42,031 nt of DNA from Nitrosomonadales bacterium (lineage in GTDB: Bacteria; Pseudomonadota; Gammaproteobacteria; Burkholderiales; Gallionellaceae), in NCBI GenBank assembly GCA_016218475.1, contig JACREB010000065.1, forward strand, positions 1-42,031, read 5' to 3'. Positions 553 to 39,889 of this stretch are shown here, in pieces. The stretch's first letter is position 1. Every line of letters starts with the position of its first letter. The translations under genes and the position numbers were made by a program. The notes beneath the pieces are model-generated. The model was not told the DNA's origin. It worked only from the letters and a program-made list of their open reading frames with translations, and ran no database searches.

Positions 553-583
553 CCAGTGTTTTATCCCAGATTGTCCGTTAGGC

Positions 584-686
584 GTAGGTCGGGCTTTAGC
601 CCGACATGTCGGGTTGGCTTTGCATAGCCATTCGGCTAAGTCACCAAAATACGGTGACATAAGCCGCTGGTTAAAACCCGACCTAC
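584..686. repeat. GTAGGTCGGG palindrome interrupted by a second element
   Basis: GTAGGTCGGG (584-593) and CCCGACCTAC (677-686) are perfect inverted arms. Inside the left part is GTAGGTCGGGCTTTAGCCCGAC, itself a hairpin. Related palindromes lie at 3406-3449 and 16152-16205, and a half copy at about 16262-16292. In the half copy, CGACATGTCGGATT runs straight into AAAACCC; here the same junction is split by 57 bp (616-672). This dates the inner insertion as later than the outer palindrome. Confidence 0.8.
616..672. repeat. Hairpin element copy A, nested in another palindrome
   Basis: The left arm is TAGCCATTCGGCTA (624 onward), the inner stem GTCACC/GGTGAC with an A-rich 7-nt loop, and the right arm AAGCCGCTGGTTA ends at 673. 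It has the same architecture as copies at 2015, 32818 and 38837, but this is the most diverged. The residues TT occur on both sides of the insert, which would fit a very short target duplication. Confidence 0.75.
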
Positions 687-739
687 AATCTTTTGATTTT
701 GTTGGTGCTGCACCGGTTAATGAACAATTTGGATTCATT

Positions 740-3220
740 TCAGTCCCCTTTCGCAAGTGCCGGAACAGTATCCACCGCCAGATTGGGTTTATCGAACAGC
801 CAATTTCTCCCCAACATCACCAGAGCGGGCAGATAGAGGATGGTAAACAACGCGGAAAACAGCATCATCGAGACGATGAATGCGCCCACCGCGATATAGG
901 GTGTGAGCGGAGCGAACAGCATGACCGAGAAGGCCGCCGCAAACAGCAGCGCGTTGCGGAAGATGCCCTTGCCCGGCCGCGCCGCCGTCCATAACAGCGC
1001 TTCCCGCACCTCGCGCCCGCCCGTCTCGGCCAGCCGCTGCCGAAAGCGGTTGATAAAGTGGATGGAGAAATCCACCGCCATGCCGAGCGACAGCGTGCTC
1101 AGCACCGAAAGCGGCATGTCGAAATCCTTGCCGGCGAAGCCAACTGCGCCGTAGATCAGCAGGATGGTAAACAGCAGCGGCATGTAGCCAACAATTGCCC
1201 ACCTGACCGAGCGAAAATTGAGGGCGAGGATGACGAACACCACGACCAAAGCCAGCGTGAAACCCAGCACCATGTCGCCCAGCACCTCGTCGTTCCACAC
1301 CAGATTGAAATAGGCGATCCCCGCCGGTTTGACGGTGACGGCGAGCGGATGATCCTTTTGATAATCTGCGGCGGCTTCGATTACCTGGCGCATCGCCTCC
1401 GCATCCCAGGTCTTCAATTGCACCCACAAATTGGCTTTCTGGAACGTGGGGTCGATTACGTTGTCGAGGTCGGAGGGTTTGGCCGACATGCTGAACAGGA
1501 ACAGATATTGGCCGACCGCGTCCTGTGTATCCGGCACCACATCGAATTCCGGGTCGTCATCGTGCAGCACGCGGTTAATGCGTTTCACGTAGTCGGCTAC
1601 CGAGAAGGTCTTGCCCACTGTCGGCATCGTTTCCAGGTGGCGTTGCAGACCCTCCAGCCAGCGCATGGCTTCCGGCCGCTTCATGAAATCCGCTTCGTTG
1701 GACTGCACCACCAGATAGCCGAGCGATGTGCCGCCGAGCGCCTGGTTCATCGCCGTATCGGCTATGCGGATTTCGCTCGACTGCTTGAACCACGCCACCA
1801 GATTGTTGTTCACGTGGATCTTCGTGGTTCCAGTAATCGCGGCGGCAACGAGAACAAGACCGATCAGCACAGTGGACAGGGGACGCGTCGTGCCCACTTC
1901 GGCAATGCGGCGCAGAAAACGGGTTGTGCGATCCAGCTCCGCGCTCTCGCCCCAGAGGACTGAGGACTGAGGACTGAGGTCTGACATTGAGGAGATTTTT
2001 CTGATAAAACTACTAGCCATTCGACTAGGCAGACAAAAAACGTCTGCCAAGTCGCTGGTTATGTCATCTGTCACCTGTCTTCTGTCCTCTGAATCAGCGA
2101 CTTTGGCGATCTTCTCCTCCTTGACGAAGGTAAGAATGGCGGGAATCAGGCTGAAGGAGAACAGCCGCAGCACCACTGTGCCGAAGGCGATCAGCCCGCC
2201 GAACACCTGTACCGGCACTATGTTCATGAACAGCAGCACGGCGAAGCCGGCGGCGGTGGCCAATGCCGTGTAGCGCACCGGACGGCTCACCGCCTGCATC
2301 GTTTCGCGGATTGCCGCCAGCTTATCCCCACGCTCCCGGTAACGGAAATAGAACTCATTGAAGATGTGGATGCTGTCCGTGGCGATGGCCATGAGGAACA
2401 CCGGGGCCATGGAGCTCATGATGTGGATGGGGAAGCCGAGTCCGATGAGGAGCCCCATGCTCCACGCGATGGCGATCATGGCGTCCATCATCAGGGCGAT
2501 AGAAAGGAAGAGGTCTCCGAACATCAGGTACCGGGCCGCGAACATGACCAAGCCGGCGATTGGCGCGAAGATCGCCATCAGCTTGAACATTTCCGCGCCG
2601 AAGGTATCGCGCGCCACCGGGTCGCCAGCGACGTAGTAACGCTCCGGCCCCTTCTCCCTGGACACAATCTCGCGGATTTTTCCGGCGATTTCGGCGCCGT
2701 TGGCATCCTTTTCCAGCGGCGCGTAGATCGCCGTGGTCTTGGCATCTTTCGAGATCACGCGATCAACGAACAGTGGATTGCCGAACAGCGCCGTGTGCAG
2801 CGCTTCCACTTCCGCATCTGTCCGGGGCGCGCCCGGCATGAGCGGCCCGACTTTTAATGTGCCGGCCTCCGCCGTGACATTGGTGATGGTGGTGAAGCTG
2901 TTTACATCGCGGCTCGCCACGCCTTCCAGCTTGATGATTGCGTCGGTGACGCGGGCGATGCGAGCCAGGGTATCCCGGTTGAGCACCCCCGCATCGTTCT
3001 GCACGCCGACGACAATGGTGTCCTCGTAAAGGGCGAAGGTCTTGTCCACCTCGTCATTCCAGACACGCACGCCCGACGTTTCCGGCAGCATGTGCTTCGG
3101 GTTGGTGTCGGTCTTGATATGTATGAACTGGGTGAGAAACAGCATCGTGAGTGCCACCGTCGCCCAGACAACCAGCTTCGGGCGGCGGATGGAAAATTCG
3201 ACGAGCGAAAATTTGAGCAT
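740..3220 (-). CDS. RND/MMPL-family exporter with an in-frame repeat insertion
   Basis: This is a large inner-membrane RND-superfamily transporter (MMPL / COG1033 type), about 826 residues. It has two halves, each with an N-terminal membrane helix, a periplasmic domain and a bundle of helices. The matching motifs DSIHIFNEF in the first half and AVDFSIHFINRF in the second are the expected sterol-sensing/RND signature pair. The substrate is not evident; family members export lipids or hydrophobic compounds driven by the proton gradient. The start at 3220 (MLKFSLVEFSIRRPK) is chosen because CAGGT precedes it and the membrane helix follows at once; an ATG at 3274 would add 18 unconvincing residues. 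Residues of about 376-420, in the cytoplasmic linker between the halves, are encoded entirely by repeat DNA (hairpin element copy B plus flanking tandem CTGAGGA-like repeats), yet the frame stays open. It is followed by the lipoprotein-sorting-like gene. Confidence 0.9.
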   Translation of the reverse strand: MLKFSLVEFSIRRPKLVVWATVALTMLFLTQFIHIKTDTNPKHMLPETSGVRVWNDEVDKTFALYEDTIVVGVQNDAGVLNRDTLARIARVTDAIIKLEGVASRDVNSFTTITNVTAEAGTLKVGPLMPGAPRTDAEVEALHTALFGNPLFVDRVISKDAKTTAIYAPLEKDANGAEIAGKIREIVSREKGPERYYVAGDPVARDTFGAEMFKLMAIFAPIAGLVMFAARYLMFGDLFLSIALMMDAMIAIAWSMGLLIGLGFPIHIMSSMAPVFLMAIATDSIHIFNEFYFRYRERGDKLAAIRETMQAVSRPVRYTALATAAGFAVLLFMNIVPVQVFGGLIAFGTVVLRLFSFSLIPAILTFVKEEKIAKVADSEDRRQVTDDITSDLADVFCLPSRMASSFIRKISSMSDLSPQSSVLWGESAELDRTTRFLRRIAEVGTTRPLSTVLIGLVLVAAAITGTTKIHVNNNLVAWFKQSSEIRIADTAMNQALGGTSLGYLVVQSNEADFMKRPEAMRWLEGLQRHLETMPTVGKTFSVADYVKRINRVLHDDDPEFDVVPDTQDAVGQYLFLFSMSAKPSDLDNVIDPTFQKANLWVQLKTWDAEAMRQVIEAAADYQKDHPLAVTVKPAGIAYFNLVWNDEVLGDMVLGFTLALVVVFVILALNFRSVRWAIVGYMPLLFTILLIYGAVGFAGKDFDMPLSVLSTLSLGMAVDFSIHFINRFRQRLAETGGREVREALLWTAARPGKGIFRNALLFAAAFSVMLFAPLTPYIAVGAFIVSMMLFSALFTILYLPALVMLGRNWLFDKPNLAVDTVPALAKGD
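1957..2095 (-). repeat. Translated insertion in the RND gene: hairpin element copy B plus tandem short repeats
   Basis: The core is TAGCCATTCGACTAG (2015-2029), inner stem GGCAGAC/GTCTGCC (2029-2035 and 2043-2049), loop AAAAAAC, and right arm CAAGTCGCTGGTTA (2049-2062). On one side are three tandem copies of GAGGACT (about 1959-1979), and on the other a TCTGTCNNCTGTC-type run (2068-2092). On the coding strand it reads ITSDLAD...PSRMASS without stops. The rest of the linker, SEDRRQVTDD and SPQSSV, comes from the tandem repeats. Confidence 0.85.
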
Positions 3221-3265
3221 GGTTTTTACCTGAAACTGGTTGATATCGAAAGCGTTGCGTATCCT

Positions 3266-3385
3266 AACGTGCATGGCGAGTAGCCACGCCTGATGATGAA
3301 ACCCGCCATGCCCGTTTCCCCCACCCTAACCCTCCCCCGGAAGGAGAGGGGACAAACGAATCGCTACGCGAGCTTCACGTTAAAC
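3266..3385 (+). repeat. Composite repeat, short copy
   Basis: It starts with an inverted pair GCATGGC (3271-3277) / GCCATGC (3304-3310), then CCCGTTT, a CCCTCCCCCGGAAGGAGAGGGG palindromic core, and the terminal motif TCGCTACGCGA-N3-TCACGTTA (3361-3382). The same left end is found at 32614-32665 and the same right end at 32918-32939 and, inverted, at 41749-41770. It occupies the region upstream of the RND gene. Confidence 0.75.
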
Positions 3386-32613: not shown

Positions 32614-32939
32614 GGGCATGGCAAATATGACGCACCTGATAATGAAAACCGCCATGCCCGTTTTCTCCCACCCCATCTCTCCCCTGCAAACGGGCAACCC
32701 CCACCCAATCCCTCCCCCGGAGGGGGAGGGTTCGATTGCCCTTTCCCCCTCGGGGGGAAAGATGGATAGAGGGCTGGGGACGAGAATCCCCTCACCTCAA
32801 TCCTCTGGTGGAACTCCTAGCCATTCGACTAGCCTGGCAAAAGACGCCAGCCAAGTCGCTGGTTATCCCGCAAGCGGGAGAGGAGGCGAACGAGAAAAAC
32901 AATTGTCAATATCTGAATCGCTACGCGAGTTTCACGTTA
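32614..32939 (+). repeat. Composite nested repeat between atpF and atpH
   Basis: It starts 2 bp after the atpF stop with GGGCATGGC (32614-32622) and GCCATGCCC (32651-32659), an inverted pair. It continues with CCCCCACCCAATCC, CCCTCCCCCGGAGGGGGAGGG, GATTGCCCTTTCCCCC and GGATAGAGGGCTGGGG (as at 12625-12739), then the hairpin element copy C (32818-32866), and ends with TCGCTACGCGA-N3-TCACGTTA (32918-32939; as at 3361-3382). It sits inside an operon whose genes must be co-expressed and leaves atpH without an obvious ribosome binding site. Confidence 0.85.
32818..32866 (+). repeat. Hairpin element copy C
   Basis: Left arm TAGCCATTCGACTAG (32818-32832), inner stem CTGGC/GCCAG (32834-32838 and 32846-32850) with loop AAAAGAC, right arm CAAGTCGCTGGTTAT (32852-32866). 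The arms equal those of copies B and D while the inner stem sequence differs and still pairs. Preceding bases CTGGTGGAACTC match CTGATAAAACTA and CTGATAGAGCTA at the other two copies. Confidence 0.88.
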
Positions 32940-37450: not shown

Positions 37451-37879
37451 ATGGCAATGACCGTACATGTCGATGTGGTTAGCGCGGAAGAAGCCATCTT
37501 CTCCGGGCTAGCGGAAATGATAGTCGTCCCCGGAGAAATGGGCGAACTGGGCATTTATCCGCGCCACACCGCGTTGATGACGCGCATCAAACCGGGCTCG
37601 GTCAGGATCAAGCGCCCGGAGCATGAGCAGGAAGTGCTAATCTACGTCTCGGGCGGTATGCTTGAAGTGCAGCCCGGTGTAGTGACCATTCTGGCCGACA
37701 CGGCAATACGCGGCGCCGACCTGGATGAAGCGCGTGCGATGGAGGCGAAGCAAGCTGCGGAAGAGGCGATGAGAAATCGTGCTTCCGATATTGACTACGC
37801 ACAGGCGCAAGGCGAATTGGCGGAAGCCATCGCACAGTTGCGCGCGATCCAGCAATTGCGCAAACAGACGGCACACTAA
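37451..37879 (+). CDS. atpC: ATP synthase F1 subunit epsilon
   Basis: The 142-residue protein has the N-terminal beta sandwich ([38 protein letters not shown]) and the C-terminal helical hairpin that regulates ATP hydrolysis. It is the last gene of the operon. Its stop codon TAA (37877-37879) falls inside a 6-bp direct repeat ACTAAT created on both sides of the adjacent MITE-like element. Confidence 0.97.
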
Positions 37880-37880
37880 T

Positions 37881-38069
37881 CTTACTGTGTCACAAAGCGC
37901 TGAAGGGCGCATTGCGGCGTTAAAATCAGGCTCAAAATGCTCATTTACTACATGTAAACTCCGCTTTTTGCGAGTTGGGCGGCAACGACAAGCCGCCCAT
38001 CCCTGCTTGACCCACTTCGCCCGATTTTGCCTTGCACTGCATCCCTTGATCGCTTTGTGACACAGTAAG
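37881..38069 (-). repeat. MITE-like element, copy 3 (long form) with target duplication
   Basis: The 189-bp element has perfect 19-bp ends CTTACTGTGTCACAAAGCG and complement. ACTAAT occurs at 37875-37880 and again at 38070-38075, a clear 6-bp target duplication. The orientation is opposite to copies 1 and 2. Its strong hairpin directly after the atpC stop may terminate the operon. Confidence 0.93.
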
Positions 38070-38476
38070 ACTAATGCCATTTTGTAACTACTCAGGTGCA
38101 GCGGGTTTCACTCCCCTCCCCCGCAGGCGGGGGAGGGGACTGGTGTTGTGGCGCTTCCGCGAGCATCGTATTTCGGCCTGAGTAGTTATTCCATTTCTAA
38201 TTTAATAATGCCATAATAAACCAAAGCTGTCCGCTGCAAACCAGTTCGAACATTATATTGTGGCTAATCAGGTATTATTTTGGGAATGGCGGTTGGCGGT
38301 TTCGTAGGTGCGAATTCATTCGCACCTACGAAGGCGGTTGCGCAGGGAAGGCAGCTTTCCATTCTTGGTTCCGGCTTGTGTTCTGCTGTCCATAAAGCAC
38401 TTCACGCACAACCCATGCGGCACAATGGCCAACGGGCAAGCACCGAATATACGCCGAGCACATCCGGTTTTTTACC
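38070..38476. other. Gene-free convergent gap after the atp and cys operons
   Basis: The 407 bp hold two perfect palindromes, at 38112-38139 (13-bp arms TCCCCTCCCCCGC) and 38301-38332 (see there). The short plus-strand open frames here do not look like genes. Confidence 0.6.
38301..38332. terminator. 15-bp perfect hairpin between convergent operons
   Basis: TTCGTAGGTGCGAAT and ATTCGCACCTACGAA are exact complements with a 2-nt spacer. It is positioned between the 3' ends of the atp and cys operons and could act in both directions. It has no T-run, so it may instead be a REP-type repeat. Confidence 0.5.
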
Positions 38477-39889
38477 TCAGGCAATCATCCCCGCCGCAAC
38501 CGTGTTGTTGCTTGCCTCGTCGATCACGATAAAGCTGCCAGTAAAGCGGTTCTTGCTGTAATGGTCGAGCGCCAGCGGTTGCTGCACTTTCATCGCCACG
38601 CGGGCGATGTCGTTCATGTTGAGTTTGTCTGTTTCGTGGTGCGCCAGGGTGTTCACGTCCACACGATAGTCGAGACGCGAGAACAGGCACTTCACCATGC
38701 GCGTGGTGTGCTTGATGATGTATTTCCGGTTCAGGTCGAGCGGCGCTTCGGCCAGCCAGCACAACATGGCTTCGAATTCCTTGGCAACAGTCGGCATCGC
38801 GGTACCTGCCCCCGACACGTTACTGATAGAGCTACTAGCCATTCGACTAGGCGAGCCAACTACGCTCGCCAAGTCGCTGGTTATGGCGGAGCAAGCCGAT
38901 TGCGGGAGGGGGCAGTCGGACGGCATTCCCGCACCAGCCGCATTCGCGCACCGTGTCATGCCGTCCGCTTTGACGAACATGTCGCCGCGCGAGATGTCGA
39001 TCTCGTCTTCCAGCGTGAGCGTGACGGATTGCGGCGCGTAGGCACGTTGCAGGTTGCTGTCGTAGGTGACGATTTCCTTCACCTTGCTGGTGCGCCCCGA
39101 GGGCAGCACGGTGATCTCGTCGCCGACCGCGATTTCGCCCGATTCGATGCGCCCCATGTAGCCGCGAAAGTCGTGATATTCCTGCGTCTGCGGGCGGCAT
39201 ACCCATTGCACCGGATAGCGGAAGTCGGCGGTATTCACGTCGTAGTCGATCACCACGTTTTCCAGAAAATCCAGCAGCGGCGCGCCCTTGTACCAGTTCA
39301 GGTTGTCGCCGTGTTCCACCACCATGTCGCCGTTCAGCGCGGACATCGGGATGCAGGTCACATCATGGATGCCGAGCTGCGCGGCAAAGGCGCGGTACTC
39401 GGCGACGATGGCGTTGAAGGTATCTTCGGAATAGCCCACCATGTCCATCTTGTTCACGGCCAGCACGATGTGCGGCACGCCGACCAGGCTGGCGAGGAAA
39501 GTATGGCGGCGCGTCTGCGTCAGCACGCCCTTGCGCGCATCGATCAGTATGACCACCAGATTGGCCGTGGAGGCGGCGGTGACCATGTTGCGCGTGTACT
39601 GCTCGTGCCCCGGCGTGTCGCCGATGATGAACTTGCGCTTGGGCGTGGCGAAGTAGCGGTACGCCACGTCGATGGTGATGCCCTGTTCGCGCTCGGCCTG
39701 CAGGCCATCTGTGAGCAGCGACAGGTCGACGGCTGCCATGCCGCGCTTCTCGCTGGTCTTGGAGATCGCCGAGAGCTGATCCTCAAAGATGGATTTCGAG
39801 TCGTGCAACAGACGCCCGATCAGCGTGCTCTTGCCGTCATCCACGCTGCCGGCGGTGATGAATCTTAGTAATTGTGTTGTGTTGCTCAT
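38477..39889 (-). CDS. cysN: Sulfate adenylyltransferase subunit 1 (GTPase) with a 54-residue repeat-encoded insertion
   Basis: CysN is the GTPase that drives ATP sulfurylase with CysD. G motifs are [14 protein letters not shown] (residues 12-25), DTPGHEQY and NKMD; the EF-Tu-like domains 2 and 3 follow. Of the 470 residues, about 312-365 are foreign: between VKADGM and [11 protein letters not shown], which should adjoin, lie 162 bp that include hairpin element copy D and an extra GGACGGCAT/ATGCCGTCC hairpin. Without it the length is 416, near normal. The frame is intact and later motifs ([27 protein letters not shown]) are conserved, so the protein probably works. The apparent ribosome binding site AGAGG comes from the inverted-repeat element upstream. 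Confidence 0.93.
38797..38959 (-). repeat. Translated insertion in cysN containing hairpin element copy D
   Basis: The core spans 38837-38885: left arm TAGCCATTCGACTAG, inner stem GGCGAGC/GCTCGCC (38851-38857 and 38865-38871), loop CAACTAC, right arm AAGTCGCTGGTTAT. On the coding strand it reads ITSDLAS...SPSRMASS, in the same frame as in the RND gene. ATG codons preceded by GGC or GCG lie at both ends (38959 and 38797), 162 bp or 54 codons apart. Confidence 0.88.

Follow-up and report, generated by a model that had tools for sequence, protein, structure and literature searches.

A palindromic in-frame insert in cysN is probably a copy of a small non-autonomous mobile element family in Gallionellaceae-type bacteria

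The cysN gene of a Nitrosomonadales bacterium is split by a 54-codon palindromic insert that, on the evidence of sequence comparison, is probably a copy of a non-autonomous mobile family, moved conservatively and translated in place. The gene (38477..39889, minus strand) lies near the end of the window, the whole stretch of 42,031 nucleotides analysed here, and forms a single open frame of 470 residues including the insert, which confirms the proposal of a first-pass annotation that 54 codons interrupt CysN without breaking its frame. Its product is identified as CysN by NCBIfam matches above cut-off (TIGR02034, PRK05124), the match falling in two separate stretches; cysD and cysH lie upstream, and the inserted peptide is preceded by VKADGM and followed by PTVAKEF. 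Measured against the empty cysN of relatives, the net insert occupies 38797..38959 (minus strand; 162 nt, with ends ambiguous by a few nucleotides either way). The alignment to close relatives that the annotation had recommended bears out its expectation: in four congeners (G005, G016, G008 and G026; loci L033-L036), at 93-96% identity, the 54 residues are missing, CysN is 416-417 residues long, and the linker runs directly into P..V.KEF. The solved CysN of P. syringae (1zun_B) has a short linker at this position, and Pfam begins the C-terminal domain of CysN at residue 371, which together place the insert between domains II and III. Only 3 of 30 CysN sequences (a genus sample and one MAG) carry the insert, the remaining 27 being empty; its presence in CysN of many unrelated bacteria, named beforehand as the pattern that would speak against a mobile insert, was not seen within the sequences searched. 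From the intact frame we infer that the insert is read as part of CysN. An AlphaFold model of the inserted protein was unusable (mean pLDDT 46.8), and a 191-nt segment of cysN folded as RNA has ordinary stability (z -1.45).

The annotation had described the repeat as a core hairpin. That hairpin does recur, but the repeat unit is larger: the insert is a composite, made of an element of approximately 99 nt, here called E, with a 60-nt core hairpin inside it. The base form of E consists of two inverted hairpins, L-E1-L' and R'-E2-R. In cysN, where all parts lie on the minus strand, the left end L (38958..38966; GGACGGCAT on the gene strand) is followed by E1 (38927..38957), the 31-nt conserved loop of hairpin 1, reading GACACGGTG..GTGCGGGA. 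The 19-nt middle, M (38908..38926), comprises the reverse complement of L, three nucleotides, and the reverse complement of R, so that its first part pairs with L and its last part with R. E2 (38814..38907), the conserved loop of hairpin 2, and the right end R (38806..38813; GGGGGCAG on the gene strand) complete the element. E2 measures 94 nt here and 34 nt in base copies, because the core hairpin (38824..38883, minus strand), which reads an 18-residue peptide, is nested within it. A second flanking hairpin noticed earlier, GGACGGCAT/ATGCCGTCC, is real and corresponds to helix 1 of E, although the L stretch in cysN may be native, as the empty gene of G005 has GGACGGTAT there.

To describe the family we used a set of 132 distinct copies located by three sequence anchors, allowing at most 40 nt for E1 and 70 nt for M and requiring flanks of 60 nt; diverged copies and those at contig edges are absent from it. 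The base plan, with E1 of 31 or 32 nt, M of 19 nt and E2 of 34 nt, holds exactly in 72 of these copies. Terminal inverted repeats, the feature by which MITEs are recognised, occur in most aligned copies, E1 starting with GACACG and E2 ending with CGTGTC. E1 as a whole approximates the reverse complement of E2, and an alternative pairing of the strand, E1 with E2, is possible. Besides the 60-nt core, nested inserts of 81 nt and 27 nt were found; the former, itself palindromic, extends E2 to 175 nt in two loci (L009 and L143), in the first of which the copy lies in frame in dnaE. Several other loci (L173, L185, L220, L225, L261 and others) form a subfamily in which M measures 18 nt and the left flank resembles GTAGCGAGGTTGCCTT; no open frame runs through these copies.

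The core hairpin is dispersed both with and without E. A second in-frame copy (1998..2063, minus strand), reading ITSDLADVFCLPSRMASSFI, lies inside a transporter-like gene of 844 residues (740-3274, minus strand) whose best NCBIfam match, below cut-off, is the HAE3 family, making it HAE3/MMPL-like; another (32805..32866, plus strand) is directly upstream of the coding region of the ATP synthase delta subunit. A 50-nt core pattern matched the window at 38835-38884, 2013-2062 and 32817-32866, and a diverged core stands near 625-670, nested in another palindrome; the earlier count of three more copies in the window is thereby recovered as two further pattern matches and the diverged one. The genome-wide search that had been called for returned many copies: 52 matches to the pattern with three or fewer mismatches, and none to the reversed control. 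With the 163-nt insert as a blast query there were at least 43 matches, 40 of 121 candidates having been scored. By eye, the core stem differs between copies in complementary fashion. Twelve of the 38 distinct core copies in scanned loci read through in the frame that gives ITSDLA, and at least seven of those twelve stand outside any copy of E; two opposite frames are open through 10 and 6 of the 38. The copy in the transporter-like gene is likewise outside any E, keeps the peptide motif ITSDLA..PSRMASS, and has short direct repeats on its flanks. The diverged core lies within a GTAGGTCGGGC..CCCGACCTAC palindrome (window 580-690), indicating that other repeats also host cores.

Copies of E show a pronounced frame preference, as had been claimed for the strand of cysN: the frame reading LPQSAG (+0) is stop-free in 119 of 132 copies, and the remaining two on the same strand in 41 and 1. 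Stops alone do not account for the bias toward +0, because the three opposite-strand frames are also mostly open (92, 100 and 86 of 132); target sequence may set it instead. An ORF extending at least 150 nt to both sides passes through 71 copies. In 55 of them it is in +0; for the other 16 it lies solely outside that frame (-1 in 11, -2 in two, -0 in two and +1 in one). Hosts identified by NCBIfam and Pfam for frame +0 include pgi, ispE, prmA, dnaE, sucA, an acuI-type reductase, pgm, gltD, uvrD, murG, bioD, galU, a dacB-type gene, recG, dapF and earP, and for frame -1 aceE, hemD, aat, trpE and a HrpA-like helicase. All 20 read-through ORFs submitted to NCBIfam fell in known families, 17 above the curated cut-off and three (uvrD, recG and hemD) below it; nine of ten submitted to Pfam had a match, the exception being L017. 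Tandem in-frame double insertions were observed in the acuI-type reductase (L200, 1134-1234 and its neighbour) and in ispE (L003, 1312-1411 and an adjacent copy). Among the 61 copies through which no such ORF passes, 10 are situated at junctions of ribosome-binding site and start codon, several of them hisF-hisI-like by eye; there a TGA is created at the left junction and GGAGGTG..ATG is retained by the right gene. The remaining 51 may include copies that break genes.

Comparison with relatives gave further evidence of insertion. In 16 genes, with loci hand-picked from search matches, the insert was absent at all 44 relatives' sites analysed. Net insert lengths in this comparison were 99, 159, 162 and 240 nt, all multiples of three, which is no proof in itself because the set was chosen as ORFs reading through the element. 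In murG the site is filled in four loci and empty in all 27 others fetched, and in acuI it is filled in three and empty in 19, with nine loci unparsed. The cysN carriers (G000, G019 and the MAG locus L255) stand apart in the gene tree, the nodes between them being supported at up to 1.0. In murG, too, the four carriers are separate, with two placements weakly supported and six of 31 sequences unparsed, and these gene-tree tests are simple. The scattered carriers seem to fit recurrent insertion at preferred sites in cysN and murG; they could instead result from losses or gene exchange. In two murG loci empty at the E site (L436 of G016 and L437 of G031), another in-frame palindromic insert, reading PLPQAVEGANESLREC / PLPHAGEGGNGSLREC, occurs about 30 residues upstream, and probably represents a second family of intragenic palindromic repeats.

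When the outer flanks of inserted copies are joined at GG or GC, they reproduce by eye the empty sequence of relatives in pgi (GTGG|ACGGCAAG), gltD (GAAGTGG|CGGGCGAC), pgm (CGGTGG|AA) and aceE (GGGCGC|AAGG). Junction statistics were compiled for 108 copies in three classes that we defined (31, 32 and M2), assuming fixed offsets. Both junction dinucleotides are GG/GG or GC/GC at these offsets in 72 of 108, and ten more have TG/GC, which fits GC with a shift of one nucleotide; allowing that shift still leaves about a quarter that do not conform to GG/GC at the offset assumed. Agreement of the dinucleotides is in itself not above shuffling, because the dinucleotide is nearly constant within each class. 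The joined ends of the element resemble its targets (e.g., GGAGGC-GG-ACGGCAT or GGAGGT-GC-GGTTAT), and this similarity of target and donor beyond the GG/GC core is greater than in any of 1000 shuffles on both flanks in class 32 and on one flank, not the left, in class 31; in the M2 subfamily it is above shuffling on neither flank. The empty cysN target in G005 reads GCGGACGGTATG. Point changes or small indels have to be admitted for the junction model in murG, ispE, prmA, galU, dnaE and on the right side of cysN. At the start-codon junctions there are 14-nt near-repeats, which may be interpreted as ends of the element that look like its target. A duplication of 14-15 nt of target, with M copied from it, was considered and set aside, since the empty sites of pgi, murG and gltD assign some of the flanking sequence to the element itself.

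Over a set of 67 copies, M is complementary on average at 7.4 of the 8 nt adjoining E1 on the left and at 7.0 of the 8 nt adjoining E2 on the right, means that fall to 4.8 and 4.9 once flanks are exchanged at random among the copies. Alignment of 67 base copies, all having a 19-nt M, shows pairing in 94.6% of the cells of the two helices, compared with 69.6% after shuffling and 36-56% for slid partners, and 15 of 16 pairs have changed on both sides; further pair types, one of five covariation measures, are not above shuffling (68/500). Among 111 copies with a 19-nt M, the left stem has 853 of 888 Watson-Crick pairs and 18 G.T, and the right stem 782 of 888 and six G.T, the weaker right helix being due chiefly to a subfamily ending GCGGGATG. 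The rarity of G.T points to complementarity at the level of DNA rather than to RNA folding. Folding predictions do not favour a dumbbell: for one copy the predicted optimum pairs E1 with E2, and for another hairpin 2 forms and hairpin 1 does not, with stability no better than that of shuffles. Rfam returned no match for the window at gathering scores, nor for one separate copy (L002) at E-values up to 5.

Beyond the existence of inserts with these junctions, we infer the following mechanism. Movement would be conservative recombination of a circle of approximately 99 nt, or 159 or 162 nt when it contains the core hairpin, joined at a GG or GC dinucleotide in targets resembling the circle's own joined ends (R-core-L). 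A single strand of the circle would be able to fold and bring M into pairing with R-core-L, generating a double-stranded attachment site between two loops, and a hypothetical recombinase would perform the joining in trans; a site folded in this manner would account for both the covariation and the scarcity of G.T. Once inserted, the element would simply be translated within the host protein, and would be tolerated by virtue of a length that is a multiple of three and a stop-free preferred frame, aided in cysN by its interdomain position, in the linker that joins domains II and III. A bolder formulation, that E exemplifies a new class of mobile DNA, is one we advance tentatively and hold to be less likely true than false. 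It would comprise a gene-less circle of about 99 nt whose single strand forms a dumbbell, with M and both ends as the double-stranded attachment site; integration would be conservative, at a dinucleotide in matching targets, with retargeting possible when ends and middle change together, and the length and stop-free frame would have evolved for translation within essential genes.

Candidate enzymes were sought in eight element-rich and eight element-poor genomes, chosen by hand from candidate counts; other rich genomes, G069, G074 and G083 among them, fall outside this comparison. A serine recombinase (IS607-like) is not supported as the mover: members of the resolvase family were found in none of the eight rich genomes and in four of the eight poor ones, some of these MAGs being incomplete. 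IS110 DEDD transposases were found in six rich and five poor genomes, and not in the rich G072 and G078; a guide role for M like that of a bridge RNA was set aside on this ground, and because M fits its own element's ends and pairs in near-strict Watson-Crick fashion.

Mobilisation of E as a REP/REPIN-type element by a REP-associated Y1 (RAYT) transposase would suit its small size and two inverted hairpins, and Y1_Tnp genes are present in most genomes. They are, however, equally frequent in rich and poor genomes (seven of eight each), with none in the rich G021; a core hairpin adjoins one (L354) of the 18 Y1_Tnp loci fetched, and the two RAYT-like loci of this genome (L342 and L343) are both flanked by different, GTAG-type palindromes, so that we regard this route as rather improbable. 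An integron-type tyrosine recombinase, for which the folded strand would serve as substrate much as attC sites do by folding into a double-stranded recombination site, is also unlikely, though somewhat less so. E can in principle fold into such a site, and integron integrases above cut-off occur in seven of eight rich and two of eight poor genomes, a correlation (Fisher two-sided ~0.04, uncorrected for the four families tested or for kinship) that we treat as a lead only. Against it, the window's own genome, 86% complete, has no integron integrase above cut-off; some integrase loci contain ordinary attC-like sites (GCCTAAC..GTTAGGC), unlike E; and GG/GC is not the cut site known for IntI. One such integron with ordinary attC-like sites (L426, 10460-11420) lies on a contig that has a copy of E at its far end (28-115).

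Two further readings dispense with present movement or with translation of the insert. Insertions of ancient date, passed on by vertical descent and frequently lost, in which quasi-palindrome correction alone keeps M matched to the ends and which no longer move, would be consistent with sites common to several species (four in murG, three each in cysN and acuI), and template switching is able to perfect imperfect palindromes. The separate positions of cysN and murG carriers in their trees argue against this history, as does the strong difference in match counts among congeners, from zero in three genomes upwards, and we give it little credence. Removal of the insert after transcription, by self-splicing or protein splicing, or its omission by translational bypassing between repeated codons, appears least probable. 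Flank similarity does resemble that of take-off and landing sites, and a skip assisted by a hairpin would be well served by an M complementary to both ends; yet skipping would need neither the maintenance of frame by many intragenic copies nor one preferred stop-free frame, the Rfam searches described above returned nothing, and near-strict Watson-Crick pairing is unlike the usual covariation of RNA. A mobile element translated in place is the reading we favour.

The family is widespread in one bacterial group. A query with a composite copy found matches in 58 of 61 genomes of the genus, themselves a sample of a larger group, and the number of matches varies strongly among congeners. The exact E2 pattern occurs in at least 113 stretches of named genomes among the matches listed, largely from Gallionella/Sideroxydans-type MAGs: 73 titles name Gallionella, Sideroxydans, Candidatus Ferrigenium or Gallionellales/-aceae, 28 name Nitrosomonadales, and 12, by label only, name Proteobacteria (six), Gammaproteobacteria (three), Betaproteobacteria (two) and Sulfuricaulis (one); Rickettsiales appears in no title among these listed matches. 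The pattern is present in the genomes of Candidatus Ferrigenium straubiae KS03 and Ca. F. bremense BP06. Most of the genomes are MAGs, in which copies were located through sequence anchors. Phage and plasmid collections contained no match to the element; the E2 pattern was present in four viral-contig stretches, one of which (L274) is within the set of 132 copies.

The element works like the Rickettsia palindromic elements (RPEs), the comparison first suggested for cysN and now supported by its many copies, its in-frame positions in conserved genes, its preference for one strand and frame, the peptide conserved among copies, and the lack of an insert at the relatives' sites; the likeness, read from sequence, is one of behaviour, and membership is not claimed. 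RPEs, according to PMC10969869, are elements of approximately 150 bp in many copies, often in frame within genes and each encoding a conserved peptide, and by that description E is similar in being small, multi-copy, in frame in genes and the source of a conserved peptide. It differs in its Gallionellaceae-type rather than Rickettsiales hosts, its modular nesting, its two covarying hairpins with a middle that mirrors both ends, and its GG/GC junctions. With MITEs such as ERIC and Correia, described in the same source as short, non-autonomous, inverted-repeat elements occasionally fused to ORFs (PMC10969869), E shares all of these features. Unlike them it has, in our reading, no clear target duplication beyond 2 nt, no autonomous parent was encountered, and a large share of its copies are intragenic and in frame. 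REPINs are non-autonomous pairs of inverted short hairpins, and REPs are mainly extragenic; E likewise consists of two inverted hairpins and is non-autonomous, whereas its stems vary and covary, and the RAYT-like genes of this genome lie among different palindromes. In attC cassettes structure is conserved over sequence and a small circle is inserted conservatively, as structure is kept more than sequence in E and as the proposed insertion would proceed; E, however, has no cassette gene, has a GG/GC core, and in its alignment shows by eye no R box pair of the RYYYAAC / GTTRRRY type, a pair that the attC-like sites close to integrases in this genus do have.

In-frame mobile palindromes have so far been known mainly from Rickettsia, and in the open-access literature, as distinct from subscription papers and preprints, we found no report of in-frame palindromic insertions in Gallionella. 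The present family would constitute a second case, with no known kinship to the first, in free-living iron-oxidising betaproteobacteria. Dozens of insertions in core genes, together with the empty sites of congeners, provide tests of how proteins absorb 33-54 foreign residues and make it testable whether such elements supply new protein sequence, while the covarying design of ends and middle and the apparently re-hit targets point to a transposition mechanism open to reconstitution. Other small repeats lie near cysN. The region downstream of the ATP synthase genes has, at window 37874-38076, a pair of 34-nt inverted repeats (88%) that stand 135 nt apart and form another small palindromic element; perfect 12-nt terminal inverted repeats (TAACTACTCAGG) surround a G-rich hairpin at 38085-38188, a possible small element; and a perfect 15-nt inverted repeat, TTCGTAGGTGCGAAT, occupies 38301-38332.
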